A stretch of DNA of 24,465 nt from a virus. The translations under genes were made by a program, and so were the position numbers. The stretch covers positions 1-24,465 of IMG/VR virus record IMGVR_UViG_3300047474_000258; one strand, given 5' to 3'. Numbering within the stretch: the stretch's first letter is position 1; each line of letters starts with the position of its first letter. Shown piece after piece: positions 9,005 to 22,582 of this stretch. The notes below the pieces were generated by a model. That model made no database searches and was not told the origin of the DNA. It worked only from the letters and a program-made list of their open reading frames with translations.

Positions 9005-9454
9005 ATGCAGTGGACTTATGAAGGCAAAGAGATAGACACAATACCAGATGAATACGAAGGCTTTGTCTATCTTATTACCAATACCACTACAGGCCAAAAA
9101 TACATAGGCAAAAAACTAGCAAAATTTAAAACTACTAAGCCACCACTCAAAGGCAAAAAGAATAAAAGACGCGGCACTAAAGAAAGCGATTGGAAAACTT
9201 ACTGGGGTTCCAGTGATAGACTAAACGCAGATGTTGCACAACTAGGCGAAGACAAGTTTACAAGAGAAATATTATACCTATGTAAAGGTAGGGGCGAAAT
9301 GTCCTACATAGAGGCAAGAGAACAGTTTGACAGGCGTGTACTTGAAACAGATGATTACTACAATGGTATCATTAATGTTAGAGTAGGCGGGTCAGACAAA
9401 CTCAAACAGGCATTGCTAGAACAAAACATCAAGGCAAAACAATCCAACACATAA
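9005..9454 (+). CDS. GIY-YIG nuclease-domain protein
   Basis: 149 residues. The GIY-YIG core is clear: GFVYLI (19-24) and KYIGKK (32-37), followed by a Lys/Arg-rich stretch and a DWKTYWGSSDRLNADV segment. Phage proteins of this size are common freestanding nucleases. Some act as homing endonucleases, but no separate DNA-binding domain (as in I-TevI) is present. It starts 8 nt after the small gene and has only a weak ribosome site. Immediately downstream lies the 550-nt gene-free, hairpin-rich region, which raises the possibility of a mobile unit. Nuclease activity is likely; the target is unknown. Confidence 0.8.
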   Translation: MQWTYEGKEIDTIPDEYEGFVYLITNTTTGQKYIGKKLAKFKTTKPPLKGKKNKRRGTKESDWKTYWGSSDRLNADVAQLGEDKFTREILYLCKGRGEMSYIEAREQFDRRVLETDDYYNGIINVRVGGSDKLKQALLEQNIKAKQSNT

Positions 9455-10028: not shown

Positions 10029-10937
10029 ATGAAAGTATGGCAAATTACAGAAGCTCCTGATAGTGGATTTACCGCAGGTAAAAAGACACCTGGTGGAGTA
10101 ATGGTTCCAGATAACTTTGATATGAAAAAAGCACCACTTAAGGTATCTAAGAGTGGCGAACTTCAACTTAGATTAAAAGATGGCACCGTACTTAAAAACA
10201 AAAGTCCAGCTCAATTAGTAGAAGCATTAGAAAAATTAGACACTCCTAACAAACCAAAAGTAGGTAAATGGAGAGAAAAAGCTGGTCGTTATTTAAAAGG
10301 TTTTACTCGTGTAGGACTGATACAACTAGCGTTAGTAGGTCAAGGACTTTTAATACTTAAAAGATATACTGAAGATGTGGGAGCATTTAAAGAACTATGG
10401 GCAGCTACGTATCCTGTAGGACATCCATTAGCACTTGGTAGTACATATTATCAAGTATCTGCTGATGCAACACTGAAGCCTTTACAATATTCTGCTTTTG
10501 CCGCGGCTGGCGCCGTTATGGCAGTTGAACTAGCAAGACTTATTAAACTTGGTAAGATTACTAGAATAATAAGATTCATAAACGCTGCAACTGCACCTTT
10601 AGTAGCTGTACCAATTTGGGGATGGGTTATAAAAGCTATAATATTTGCACTTACTGAAGGCGCTATTTGGGCAGCAGGATGGACAATTCAAAGATATGGT
10701 CCAGATCTATTCCATTACCTTTTAAGTAATACAGCTGAAGATGTATTTGATGATTTAAAAGGACTTGTTAAAAATCCACCGCCAGCAGCAGATTCAGATA
10801 AAACTAAGATCAAAAACGCTATTAAGAAAGAACTTGATGCACAACAAAATGGATCAGTTCCAAAGCCTCCGTCTACATCACTAGCACCAAAGAATGATGA
10901 TGGCATAGATTATGATAGTATCACACTACCTGATTAA
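10029..10937 (+). CDS. Candidate internal head (packaged) protein with membrane segments
   Basis: 302 residues, no recognised family. The N terminus MKVWQITEAP contains I-T-E followed by A, which fits the T4 prohead protease rule (L/I-x-E before A/G/S). It also resembles the short capsid-targeting sequences of T4 internal proteins, which begin MKTYQ and are cleaved after IAE. Residues 11-90 are polar. Hydrophobic segments lie at about 95-110, 154-172 and 188-219. The last 60 residues are Pro/Lys/Asp-rich and probably disordered. Exact-consensus late promoters precede it. I infer a protein packaged in the head, trimmed by gp21 and perhaps injected to act at the host membrane. It could also be an ordinary membrane protein. 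Its stop overlaps the convergent gp26-extension stop. Confidence 0.6.
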   Translation: MKVWQITEAPDSGFTAGKKTPGGVMVPDNFDMKKAPLKVSKSGELQLRLKDGTVLKNKSPAQLVEALEKLDTPNKPKVGKWREKAGRYLKGFTRVGLIQLALVGQGLLILKRYTEDVGAFKELWAATYPVGHPLALGSTYYQVSADATLKPLQYSAFAAAGAVMAVELARLIKLGKITRIIRFINAATAPLVAVPIWGWVIKAIIFALTEGAIWAAGWTIQRYGPDLFHYLLSNTAEDVFDDLKGLVKNPPPAADSDKTKIKNAIKKELDAQQNGSVPKPPSTSLAPKNDDGIDYDSITLPD

Positions 10938-11167
10938 ATTAGCGGTAGCCCAGTTTTATTTGTAGTTTCTATATTATCTGTAATAATCTTATGCATTACT
11001 TCTCTATCTTCTAAACTATAACGATAGAATACATCCATAGAATCAACTCCGCCGCGCATCCCCCATACTAAGCGAAATACATCGTCTTTTATTTGTTTTG
11101 TTTGATTTTCTAAAACTTTAACCTGATTGATGATCTCAGACTCCGAGAGTGGTATCAGGCTTTGACG
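10934..11167 (-). CDS. -1 frame extension of the gp26-like gene (77 codons), no own start
   Basis: An open frame of 77 sense codons follows the slippery site, in the -1 frame relative to the gp26-like gene. It encodes a compact protein-like sequence with VFRLVWGMRGGVDSMDVFY and YSLEDREVMHKIITDN segments, and ends LPLI. No ATG, GTG or TTG occurs in its first 36 codons; the first ATG would leave only 41 residues and no spaced ribosome site. It is therefore best read as the C-terminal part of a frameshift product of about 349 residues (272 + 77). Similar small frames downstream of gp26 occur in marine T4-like phages as I recall them, but I cannot verify that here. Rare initiation at CTG/ATC is an alternative. 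Confidence 0.7.
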   Translation of the reverse strand, partial: RQSLIPLSESEIINQVKVLENQTKQIKDDVFRLVWGMRGGVDSMDVFYRYSLEDREVMHKIITDNIETTNKTGLPLI

Positions 11168-11173
11168 AAAAAA
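11122..11173 (-). promoter_or_regulatory. Programmed -1 ribosomal frameshift signal
   Basis: Reading the minus strand: slippery heptamer T TTT TTC (11173-11167) in the correct phase of codons 270-272 (AAT TTT TTC), a 7-nt spacer, then a stem CCTGAT (11159-11154) pairing with ATCAGG (11127-11122). An inner hairpin ACTC-TCG-GAGT lies at 11150-11140. The zero-frame TGA (11157-11155) lies within the stem. Spacer length and layout match classic -1 frameshift sites such as those of phage tail assembly chaperone genes. Confidence 0.75.
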
Positions 11174-11982
11174 TTTGAGTTATCCATCCCCATTGTAACA
11201 ACATTTTCGTGTCCACACGCTGTACAATTAACTTTCTGTGGCTGTAATGTCCATTTAGAGGAAAGACTTTCAAGATGATCTCTAACTTTATCAAAAAATT
11301 CTTTATCGCTGTGTTCAATCCATTCAGCAATTTGACTTTCATTAGTAACTGTGTCGTCTTCAGACGTTACAGAAGCAATACATTTTCTAAATCCTAATGT
11401 AGTTTGTTCTGCAATTTTTTGATATATTGCATTTAATTCTGCACTTTTAGTTTGATCATCAGTTACATCTACTGCTTGATATAGTTGTTTTCTTAAAGAA
11501 TAAGTTTCAATGTTAATTTGAGTTATTTCTCTATAGGTAAGAGGACGTAATTTTACCATTAATGGACCTACAAGTACATCTGTTTCATACTCTAAATTTA
11601 AGAAATACTCTAGTGTACTGTTAAGATTTAAGTCAAACTTGTTTTCTTCGGAGCAACTTGAACATTGGAATGTAGTTTCAAGTGACTCTCCGTATGTAGC
11701 AATTCTAATTGCTACAAGACACGCATCAACATCAATTTGTGGCATAACCCAGGGTTGAGTTATTCCTGGAATGCAACTTTTAATAACAGAAACAGTAGCT
11801 TCACCGTTAAATAGTGCATCAGGTGTCTTGAACATAATTTCGTCCATAGCACTCATACCAAATACTGCTAAGTTACTAGGATCACCGTTGATAACACCGG
11901 GTGGGTAAAAGTTACCTTGACTAGGCAACGATAGATAGATCTTTGGTTGTCTAAAGTACTTCTGTAGTGGATTATTTTCCAT
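11155..11982 (-). CDS. gp26: gp26-like baseplate hub / tail assembly protein
   Basis: 275 residues. The N-terminal segment KIYLSLPSQGNFYP (14-27) and the central RPLTYREITQIN (146-157) are typical of the T4 baseplate hub protein family to which gp26 belongs. Two CxxC pairs (Cys107/110 and Cys253/256) form a likely zinc ribbon. T4 gp26 has 208 residues. It sits back to back with the putative tape measure, a position where other phages carry tail assembly chaperones. The gene ends with a -1 frameshift signal, so two products, 275 and about 349 residues, are predicted. An exact TATAAATA late promoter lies on the minus strand 33 nt upstream, and GAGG precedes the ATG. Family assignment is good; a chaperone role is inferred from context. 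Confidence 0.8.
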   Translation of the reverse strand: MENNPLQKYFRQPKIYLSLPSQGNFYPPGVINGDPSNLAVFGMSAMDEIMFKTPDALFNGEATVSVIKSCIPGITQPWVMPQIDVDACLVAIRIATYGESLETTFQCSSCSEENKFDLNLNSTLEYFLNLEYETDVLVGPLMVKLRPLTYREITQINIETYSLRKQLYQAVDVTDDQTKSAELNAIYQKIAEQTTLGFRKCIASVTSEDDTVTNESQIAEWIEHSDKEFFDKVRDHLESLSSKWTLQPQKVNCTACGHENVVTMGMDNSNFFVKA

Positions 11983-12048: not shown

Positions 12049-14616
12049 GTGGCTGAACTGTCCGATCAAACCGTAAAGAACTTAGACGCAACACTAAACA
12101 AGATCTTATCTAAGAATAGTACTTCTAGTAGCAGTAGTAGTGGTGGGGGTGCGCAAGAGACAGCTAAAGGATTTGATGCTTTAGGCAAAGCAACTGTTAA
12201 TTCTGTAGCTGATCTTGCAAAGTTTGGCGGAACTTTATTCTCAAGCGGTGCAAAACTATCCGATGCATACGCAGCCTCAACAAGCGTATTAGGAAATTTT
12301 GGTAGTTTACTCGGTGGCAACAGCGCAGCATTGTCAGCGGCCTTAGAAGGCACAGATAAGTTTGGCGCAGCAATACTTAAGGCGGCTGAATCAGGAGTAG
12401 ATACATTTAGAACTCTTGCTTCTAGTGGTGCTAGTTTTAATAATAATATTTTAGAATTGAAAAACAGTGCAGCACAGTCAAGACTAACACTTGATGAGTT
12501 TGCTGGTATTGTGTCTAGCAATACAGCAGGATTTGCAGCATTTGGCGGAACAGTTACCAAAGGTGCAAAAGTGTTTACTGACGCAAGTAAAGATTTATTT
12601 GACACAGGAATGGCTACACCTTTGCTGAATATGGGTATGACGTTTGAAGAAGTTAACGAAGACCTAGCAGAATATATCATAAGAAACAGACGTAGATTTA
12701 CAGCAGAAGAAATTGCTAACGGTAAAGCAAATGCATCATTTGCAGCAATGTCTACTGAGATGGACAAAATTGCAAAACTTACGGGTCAAAATCGTAAGGA
12801 AATGGAAAAAGATATAAACGACCGTATGCGTAAAGGTCAAGTTGAAGCTAAGATACGTATGCTTGAAGCAAGCGGCAACAAAGAAGCTGCTGATAAAATG
12901 AAACTAGCTCTTGCTGAAGCACAAAAAGCTGGCCCAGGTGCGTTAGCAGCAGTTGAAGATTTGTTTACAAAAGGTGCAGTTGTTAGTGAAGAAGGTAGAC
13001 AAGCAGCCGTTGCGTTAGGTCCAGCATTCCATAGTTTAACAGATATGGTTAACACTGCTAAAGGTCCTGGCGGTATTGACGGTATGAATACAAGTATTAG
13101 CAATTTCAATTCAGAAATTTCTAAACGTATCACTGATCCAAACTTTTTACAAATTGCAACACTAGGTGGTATGGGTAACGCTACAGCTGATGCAGCCGCA
13201 GCAATGGTATCTAGTGCAGGTACATATGCTGACAATGTAAACGCTTTAATGGAGAAAGAAAATCTTTCTCGAGAAGCAGCTATTAAACAGTTAAGTGAAA
13301 CTGCTAAGAAAGAACAAGAGAATAGAGATGCAACAACTTCAGTAGTTGTTAACGGAGAAAAAGCATTACGTGATATGGGCGCAATCATTAATGAAAAGCT
13401 CATAGGCGAAAACGGAGCCATTACTGAGTTTAGTACAAAATTAGAAGGCGCTGCAACAACATTAGAAACATTAAACAGACCGCAAATGACTGCAGAGCTT
13501 GATAAATTTTTAGGCGTTGTAAAAAATGCAGGTTCAATAGCAACTGGTAGTGCTGGTGAAATAACTCCTGATAAAAGAATGGAAGATGTAGAAGTTACTA
13601 GCGATCAACAAGCTAAAATGTTAGCTCTAATAGAAGGAATGAAAACAGACGCTAAAATCCAAACCGATGAAGCAAAAATGTTAACAAGCATAATTCAATC
13701 ATCAATGGGTCCGCAAATGATAACAGCGTTAGAAACTTTAGCAAAGAAAGATAACACAGATTTAGATACATTTGTAACTAAAATTCTAACAGAAGGATCA
13801 GACGAGCAAATTAAAGGCATTGCAATGCAAATTAAAAAAGCCATTGATCCGACAATATCTAATAGAGAACTTGACCAATTTGCTAGAATTTTAGATGCAA
13901 ACTTAATACAACCACTTGACGCATTACTAAAAGATGCTACACTTAATGTATCAAAAATGAATGTAGTTGACATTCTTGACAAAGACGGTAAAAAAGTTGA
14001 GTTTGACAAAGGAACATTAGGAAAAACAGGTTCTTTGATACAAGACTTTGGAAAAGAAACTGAAGCATTGTTACACGGAAAAGAAGCAGTATTAACAGTA
14101 GAACAACTAGAAAATATTGCCAAAGGTGCTCCTATGATAGGAATACAAGCTGCTCTTAGTGGATTACAACAAGCAGTAAGTATGGTTGACAACGACAAAA
14201 TAGATCCAATGGCAAGTATGCAAAACTTGTTTAAAGGATTAGAACAAACAATTAGTAGTCCTGACGATGCTCCTATGAAAGGAGTGCAATCAGCAATTGG
14301 TTCATTAGAACCAACAATGAGAGTAATGGCAACTAACCTTAAAAGTTCTATGGGAAATGTGCAAGCTGATAAAAGCCCGCAACAAATGCAGTCATCAATG
14401 TCGGGATTAGCAGCTAGTTTAGAAAAAATGGGTACAGATTTAAGTACATCATTTAAAGAAAGCGGCGGCCAGGATATGATGAAAGATTTCTCAGAACAGT
14501 TAAATAGTACTATGGGAACTATGACAGGTGAACTAATGAAGGGCAATAAGGTTGCATCTAAGCAACTAAAATCAATAGGTGGATTGTCGGGGAACCTATT
14601 TAAAGGATTAGGATAG
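12049..14616 (+). CDS. Putative tail tape measure protein (gp29-position analogue)
   Basis: 855 residues from a GTG start, supported by CTGGAG 8 nt upstream. A Ser/Gly-rich linker (about 24-33) is followed by long Ala-rich helical stretches with no cysteines or signal peptide. Segments such as NSAAQSRLTLDEFAGIVSSN (about 138-157) and GGTVTKGAKVFTDASKDL (about 165-182) resemble tape-measure-type proteins of marine myoviruses. Two Met/Gln-rich helical parts follow, and the C terminus is again Gly-rich. Tape measures set tail length at about 0.15 nm per residue, which would give a tail near 128 nm. T4 gp29 has 590 residues. Its neighbours are gp26 (divergent) and gp20 (3 nt downstream). The call rests on composition, length and context rather than a named domain. 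Confidence 0.65.
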   Translation: MAELSDQTVKNLDATLNKILSKNSTSSSSSSGGGAQETAKGFDALGKATVNSVADLAKFGGTLFSSGAKLSDAYAASTSVLGNFGSLLGGNSAALSAALEGTDKFGAAILKAAESGVDTFRTLASSGASFNNNILELKNSAAQSRLTLDEFAGIVSSNTAGFAAFGGTVTKGAKVFTDASKDLFDTGMATPLLNMGMTFEEVNEDLAEYIIRNRRRFTAEEIANGKANASFAAMSTEMDKIAKLTGQNRKEMEKDINDRMRKGQVEAKIRMLEASGNKEAADKMKLALAEAQKAGPGALAAVEDLFTKGAVVSEEGRQAAVALGPAFHSLTDMVNTAKGPGGIDGMNTSISNFNSEISKRITDPNFLQIATLGGMGNATADAAAAMVSSAGTYADNVNALMEKENLSREAAIKQLSETAKKEQENRDATTSVVVNGEKALRDMGAIINEKLIGENGAITEFSTKLEGAATTLETLNRPQMTAELDKFLGVVKNAGSIATGSAGEITPDKRMEDVEVTSDQQAKMLALIEGMKTDAKIQTDEAKMLTSIIQSSMGPQMITALETLAKKDNTDLDTFVTKILTEGSDEQIKGIAMQIKKAIDPTISNRELDQFARILDANLIQPLDALLKDATLNVSKMNVVDILDKDGKKVEFDKGTLGKTGSLIQDFGKETEALLHGKEAVLTVEQLENIAKGAPMIGIQAALSGLQQAVSMVDNDKIDPMASMQNLFKGLEQTISSPDDAPMKGVQSAIGSLEPTMRVMATNLKSSMGNVQADKSPQQMQSSMSGLAASLEKMGTDLSTSFKESGGQDMMKDFSEQLNSTMGTMTGELMKGNKVASKQLKSIGGLSGNLFKGLG

Positions 14617-21565: not shown

Positions 21566-22582
21566 ATGAAGAAGACTTTAATTATGTCTGTTATTTTCTC
21601 TCTGGTAGCAATTACTGGAGCAGTAGCAGATACAAAAACTCTTGAAGAAAGAGTTGCTGATTTAGAAAAGTCAGCACCAACACTACCAACTGGATTGTTT
21701 GTAAACGGTAATGTGGAAATGTACTATGATCCTGATCTATATGATTCAGATATCGATTCTAGAGCAGAAGTGTTTGTAGGATTACAATCTGAATTAGAAG
21801 GACCACTTAGTTGGGCAGGAGCAAGCGGCAGATTTGACTCACATTACTCTTTAGACACAACTAAAAATAACACTGTTGTTGAAAAGCAAATTGGTGTTGG
21901 TTTAGGAAATACTAGACTTTATGTTGGCGAAACAGATGCACAAAGACTTGGATTTGCTAAAACAGCTAAAATTGGCTTACCACTTATTATTACTGAACCT
22001 AATAGCAGAATTGATCACAATGAAAAAGTTGTAATTACTTTTGGTGGGTGGAATAATAATAACGAATTTGATTTTGATGAACATAGACTAAGCAGAGACT
22101 TACCGATTGGCTTTACTCTAGGTTATGATTCAGCTGCAAGTACAGTTTATTTAGGCGGCACTGTAAGTTTAGCAGGGTTTGCAGAACTATCATATATGCA
22201 AATTGGTGATAAAAACAATATTACTGATAACGAATTAAATCAGCAAGGTGTTTCTTTAGGTTCACAAGTATTACGTAGATATAATATTCCAGTAGGTTTT
22301 GGAGTTGAAGTATGGGACGACAAAAATACAGGATTAGCAAAAGATGATCGTGTTGACTTTGGCGTTATGTACAACTATTCTCAAGAAGTAATGTTTACTG
22401 CACATAGAGTATTAAATGATGATCTTGGAACTGATGGCACATATCTTGGTGTAATACACACAGCAGGACCTGTAGAAACAGGATTCTACTATCATACAGA
22501 TGTTACAAATACAAGTGTATGGACAGGTGCAACAACTGATCGTGATGATAGTATTAAAGCCACGCTAAAGTATAAGTTTTAA
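21566..22582 (+). CDS. Outer-membrane porin-like beta-barrel protein
   Basis: 338 residues. A clear Sec signal peptide (MKK, hydrophobic 5-18, likely cleavage after Ala21 in AVA-DT) is followed by a short coiled coil TLEERVADLEKS (25-36), as found in several trimeric porins. The rest is alternating amphipathic beta strands rich in Gly, Asn and Asp (for example GLFVNGNVEMYYD, FTLGYDSAASTVYLGGTVSL). The protein ends in LKYKF, with the terminal aromatic of the outer-membrane beta-signal. This predicts export to the host outer membrane. Flanked by the gp23 terminator and its own late-type promoter, with AAAGGA before the ATG. Phage-borne porins (for example Lc of PA-2) can replace host receptors. 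The exact porin family is not identified. Confidence 0.8.
   Translation: MKKTLIMSVIFSLVAITGAVADTKTLEERVADLEKSAPTLPTGLFVNGNVEMYYDPDLYDSDIDSRAEVFVGLQSELEGPLSWAGASGRFDSHYSLDTTKNNTVVEKQIGVGLGNTRLYVGETDAQRLGFAKTAKIGLPLIITEPNSRIDHNEKVVITFGGWNNNNEFDFDEHRLSRDLPIGFTLGYDSAASTVYLGGTVSLAGFAELSYMQIGDKNNITDNELNQQGVSLGSQVLRRYNIPVGFGVEVWDDKNTGLAKDDRVDFGVMYNYSQEVMFTAHRVLNDDLGTDGTYLGVIHTAGPVETGFYYHTDVTNTSVWTGATTDRDDSIKATLKYKF

Follow-up and report, generated by a model that had tools for sequence, protein, structure and literature searches.

The window, that is, the whole stretch of viral DNA analysed here (24,465 nucleotides), carries a gp26-like gene that very probably encodes two proteins, a short one and a longer one made by a −1 frameshift on the sequence T_TTT_TTC; judging from sequence comparison, the two would form a tail assembly chaperone pair like gpG/gpGT of phage lambda. 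The initial annotation of this DNA had proposed gp26 and a form of about 349 residues as such a pair, and that proposal is supported by the conservation of the site, by the coding constraint in the −1 frame, and by homology to Pfam family PF12322 and to T4 gp51. The features on which the following sections are based are these:

11155..11982, minus strand: gp26-like gene, short form (TAC-N equivalent), 275 aa; PHROG 150 'baseplate hub', E=7e-20; Pfam PF12322 T4_baseplate, 64.8 bits against a cut-off of 24.5; AlphaFold2 mean pLDDT 85
11167..11173, minus strand: slippery heptamer T_TTT_TTC in −1 phase; nearly invariant in relatives, with strongly constrained synonymous codon choice
11155..11157, minus strand: zero-frame stop TGA, 16 nt past the start of the heptamer
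10934..11173, minus strand: −1 extension (TAC-C equivalent), 79 codons and a stop; no stops in 17 relatives, pN/pS 0.45, predicted helical domain (pLDDT 83)
11122..11159, minus strand: stem-loop CCTGAT/ATCAGG with an inner hairpin; z −2.6 in the window, not kept in relatives
12049..14616, plus strand: divergent neighbour, putative tape measure or virion structural protein, 855 aa; a long divergent ORF lies beside gp26 in most relatives

The slippery site and the −1 frame

Read on the minus strand, the gene ends with AAT TTT TTC GTC AAA GCC TGA, in which the first T of the heptamer is the third base of codon 270 and codons 271-272 complete T_TTT_TTC. This reading bears out the initial annotation, which had placed T TTT TTC in phase at codons 270-272. 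An open −1 frame without a stop spans 10937-11173 and comprises 79 codons from TTT TTT, or 77 after the shift; the 77 open codons described earlier are correct when counted in the latter way, and the long form would have 272+77 = 349 residues. The earliest start codon in this frame is an ATG at codon 39 of 79, in agreement with the earlier statement that the first half of the extension has no usable start.

Slippery heptamers are common, with 28 in-phase examples across those ORFs of the window that reach 100 codons, an abundance that would suit a chance open frame, an assembly error or a decayed gene end. A −1 extension of more than 23 codons follows two of these 28, both located here (T_TTT_TTC and the overlapping A_AAT_TTT). 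An origin by chance, error or decay is refuted by the near-universal conservation of the arrangement across diverse phages and by protein-like evolution in one frame, and its probability is practically nil.

Only in the −1 frame does the extension evolve as a protein. Beyond the zero-frame stop, the −1 frame of 17 diverse relatives contains no stop at all and the other two frames contain 91 and 146, with a pN/pS of 0.45 in the −1 frame and substitutions at codon positions 1, 2 and 3 of the extension numbering 3166, 1861 and 4599, respectively. In all core marine relatives its length is fixed at 79 codons, with no indel. The gp26 part and the extension were modelled separately in AlphaFold2, which predicts a helical domain for the latter with a pLDDT of 83. 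PHROG and Pfam searches with the extension gave no convincing match, and a BFVD search with its model returned nothing below E 0.001, the best hit being a 72-aa phage protein at E 0.018. Enterobacter phages also gave matches to the extension; these are antisense to gene 27 and were set aside as chance.

Alternatively, the extension might be an independent small gene, with translation beginning through reinitiation or coupling where gp26 ends. Databases do annotate it as a gene of its own, as with the 57-aa 'gp51' of P-SSM2 and gp595 of 121Q, and in some phages an ATG overlaps or lies near the gp26 stop (TAATG in 121Q, ATGA in Atu_ph07 and Phosso). However, the first start in the window and in most marine relatives is at codon 39 and lacks a suitably spaced SD, and the extension of PAC2 has no start of any kind. 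Constraint extends to the codons ahead of the first conserved ATG (pN/pS 0.53, and 0.41 among close relatives), which argues against a separately started gene, and such a gene would leave the invariant heptamer and the synonymous constraint unexplained. A separate gene is therefore considered very unlikely, and translation of the extension by frameshifting from gp26 is the preferred explanation.

Conservation among relatives

The lineage of the window is a marine one, with the RaK2-like, Asteriusvirus and Atu_ph07 jumbo phages as relatives. A tblastn search with the gene retrieved 62 phage records, mostly of jumbo phages, and 34 viral contigs. Sixteen named phages with one gp26-type gene each were examined; an in-phase T_TTT_TT[C/T] followed by a long −1 extension is present in 15 of them, the exception being the very distant PAU, and the site and the long −1 frame recur in every marine contig examined in which the gene end is present. 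The site is found in the jumbo phages Atu_ph07, Phosso, PAC2, RaK2, 121Q, BF and SCTP-2, in Stenotrophomonas phage CM1, and in P-SSM2, Syn9, S-PM2, HTVC008M, phiM12, PhiW-14 and Cr30; its form is T_TTT_TTT in CM1, Cr30, phiM12 and HTVC008M and T_TTT_TTC in the other named phages that have it.

A wider scan took the best 80 matches in each of two family alignments, and is to be read as a sample of two groups rather than of the whole family. Among these best matches, TTTTTTC is in phase in 148/148 further distinct viral-contig genes, and the extensions that are complete (140/140) have 62-79 codons. When related gp26 loci are compared, as the initial annotation had recommended, heptamer, phase and downstream frame thus prove to be conserved almost throughout. 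The arrangement that it had named as contrary evidence, in which the heptamer is missing and the downstream gene is separately started, was sought at more than 180 loci; it occurs in none from the marine, jumbo and cyanophage groups and may occur in PAU.

In this last phage, Sphingomonas phage PAU, the end of the gp26-like gene has no slippery heptamer and is accompanied by an ORF in the +1 frame, with AAGGAG and ATGATG just past the stop. The downstream ORF is possibly a separate C-terminal gene, or possibly reached by a +1 shift.

Selection on the nucleotides of the site

Codon choice indicates that selection acts on the bases of the slippery site themselves. In counts that ignore shared ancestry, so that binomial p-values overstate the constraint and are only indicative, all jumbo-type (84/84) and all cyanophage-type (74/74) genes encode the Phe-Phe pair as TTT TTC, the share of TTC among upstream Phe codons being 17% and 29%, respectively; the Asn before the pair is AAT in 67/67 (usage 60%), and the Ser preceding that Asn is TCA in 51/68 (usage 17%). 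Because TTT is common, the first Phe codon says little and the informative one is the second, TTC; the identity of the slippery codons alone was rejected as evidence on the same grounds. Part of the constraint on TTC is to be expected, because the −1 frame reads Phe-Phe-Arg (CGN) over the same bases, a case of dual coding.

The site is also a run of T, of 7 or 8 bases in Cr30, phiM12 and HTVC008M, and such runs bring to mind transcriptional slippage, in which the polymerase rather than the ribosome would slip and mRNAs of altered length would result. However, a six-T run is short for efficient polymerase slippage, and what is kept among the best matches of the wide scan, without exception in the 148, is TTTTTTC, exactly an in-phase ribosomal heptamer. 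Slippage during transcription is very unlikely, and ribosomal slippage is the reading followed below.

RNA elements around the site

A downstream stem-loop or pseudoknot is often, although not always, part of a classic −1 signal, and the initial annotation considered all the elements of such a signal to be present. In the window they do exist: a spacer of 7 nt (GTCAAAG) separates the heptamer from a stem with an inner hairpin, and the stem-loop has an MFE of −15 kcal/mol (z −2.6). What did not stand is the role of the stem, which is not conserved. Across 17 relatives, 49% of cells are paired for this stem, a share not exceeding that in shuffles; RNAalifold found no consensus pair in the same 17, with covariation not above that of shuffles, and single relatives fold well or badly with no common shape. 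The stem-loop was rejected as a conserved stimulator on account of this shuffle-level pairing and, being unconserved, it is probably not the stimulator and not a defining part of the signal. Taken together, these loci make up a large collection of probable frameshift sites that can be aligned and that lack a conserved stem-loop, which is useful for tests of minimal signals.

An upstream element characterizes the cyanophages. Among the best matches, all 74 cyanophage-type genes have an SD-like sequence upstream of the heptamer, typically GGAGG about 10 nt away, and the Glu codon within it is GAG in 70/74, against a usage of 31% in the same genes. This element resembles the SD stimulator of the dnaX frameshift. 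In the window's own group, it was found in only 2/74 of the best matches.

Relationship to T4 gp26 and gp51

The N-terminal part of the gp26-like gene is a member of the gp26/gp51 family, with PF12322 scoring above its cut-off. The same Pfam family matches both T4 gp26 (8e-65) and T4 gp51 (2e-53), and the two are therefore paralogues. T4 gp51 is itself extended at the C-terminus, and a search with the cyanophage −1 extension profile hits this region (E 2.5e-5 at Z=1000; hhalign 91%), which indicates that the two are homologous. Window-type extensions link to RaK2-like ones at 98.7%, the step from jumbo phages to cyanophages is weak (hhalign 64.5%), and when the window-type extension was compared directly with the C-terminus of gp51 by profile, the result was not significant. 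It is likely, on the strength of these intermediates, that the extension of the window descends from the same domain as the C-terminus of gp51.

In T4, gp26 and gp51 have been described as hub assembly chaperones (PMC3004832). Among the solved structures searched by sequence, no chain matches whole T4 gp26 or gp51, as one would expect if they are assembly factors. The AlphaFold2 model of the gp26-like protein found no match in a PDB fold search. Compared with BFVD, the gp26 model matches the fold of larger uncharacterized proteins from jumbo phages, among them phiRSL1, RSF1, RP12 and phiEaH2 (E about 2e-5 to 2e-4, TM about 0.5), which, according to this model comparison, could be unrecognized chaperones.

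T4 differs from the phages discussed here in having two divergent genes, 26 and 51, and the end of its gene 26 has no slippery heptamer. The simplest reading is that the short and long members of the pair come from frameshifting in most of these phages and from two genes in T4. The order of events is more tentative: it is quite possible, although we stop somewhat short of favouring it, that the frameshifted arrangement came first in T4-like phages and gave rise, through a duplication and an in-frame fusion, to the separate genes 26 and 51 of T4, with the marine and jumbo lineage carrying a divergent C-terminal domain and a T_TTT_TTC shift without conserved RNA structure, and the cyanophages adding an SD-like stimulator about 10 nt upstream. 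In Campylobacter phage NCTC12673, gp021-gp023 comprise two PF12322 copies in succession, of which the second has its C-terminal extension in frame, and a TAA divides this second copy into gp022 and gp023; the arrangement is perhaps an independent two-gene solution.

These relationships also bear on annotation. The 'baseplate hub gp26' of marine and jumbo phages and the small orphan or 'truncated gp51' next to it are very probably one frameshifted chaperone gene. A single frameshifted gene would likewise explain why cyanophage gp51 has been described as lacking about 200 residues at its N-terminus (Sullivan et al., 2010; PMC3037559).

Proposed mechanism and known systems

According to the mechanism proposed here, most ribosomes would stop at the TGA and release the 275-aa gp26-like protein, and some would slip back one base on T_TTT_TTC and produce the form of about 349 aa, with its 77-residue helical C-terminal extension. 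By homology to T4 gp26 and gp51 and by analogy to lambda gpG and gpGT, the short form would coat the tape measure protein as the tail is assembled, and the role of the extension would be to recruit tail tube subunits; neither form need remain in the virion. We infer the frameshifting itself, its efficiency and the binding partners from comparative evidence.

The conserved translational frameshift of tail genes is said to have been described by Xu, Hendrix and Duda in 2004. As with lambda gpG/gpGT, a short product would be accompanied by a longer −1 product in the window. Unlike in lambda, the gp26-like gene is divergent from the putative tape measure and not upstream of it, and the lambda heptamer, GGGAAAG, differs from T_TTT_TTC.

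In T4-like phages, the abstract of the 2022 study by Vladimirov and co-workers reportedly names T4 genes 26 and 51, as well as frameshifting in other groups. The study itself (Vladimirov, Gautam and Davidson, Virology 2022, 566:9-15) reportedly deals with tail assembly chaperone frameshifting in T4-like phages. In the passages that cite it, the PRFect paper states that some T4-like phages have one short and one fused long gene and no frameshift (PMC10885494), and the paper on phage Adele mentions poly-T frameshift signals in the TAC-N genes of T4-like phages (PMC12846349). A few years earlier, T4 was still listed as an exception to G-T frameshifting (Atkins et al., 2016; PMC5009743). To the extent that these citing passages represent the study, the strategy had already been reported for T4-like phages (PMC10885494, PMC12846349), and the initial annotation's remark that such a role is not known to be established for this group has to be revised; since the frameshift was noted before in T4-like TAC-N genes, the finding is correct and not new in kind. 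The window resembles the T4-like chaperones, as these sources present them, in that the short and long forms share their N-terminal part and the TAC-N gene carries a poly-T signal. It differs in coming from a marine, jumbo-related lineage whose extension, of the WYMRGG type, is distant in sequence from the cyanophage/gp51 type. This lineage may be new to the published set.

Neighbouring genes

A long divergent ORF adjoins gp26 in most relatives and in most of the named jumbo phages, but not in Atu_ph07 or the cyanophages. In Serratia phage BF, the ORF at the same position has hits to three PHROGs of tape measure proteins (E about 2e-6 to 7e-6); the neighbouring protein of the window itself gave no direct family match.

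Two other genes of the window, both on the plus strand, were observed in passing. The one at 21566-22582 encodes a protein of 338 aa with a signal-peptide-like start and a C-terminal Phe, which by eye resembles a bacterial outer-membrane porin and for which no Pfam match was found. The other, at 9005-9454, encodes a GIY-YIG endonuclease of the T4 SegE type (PF19835, E 4.5e-36).
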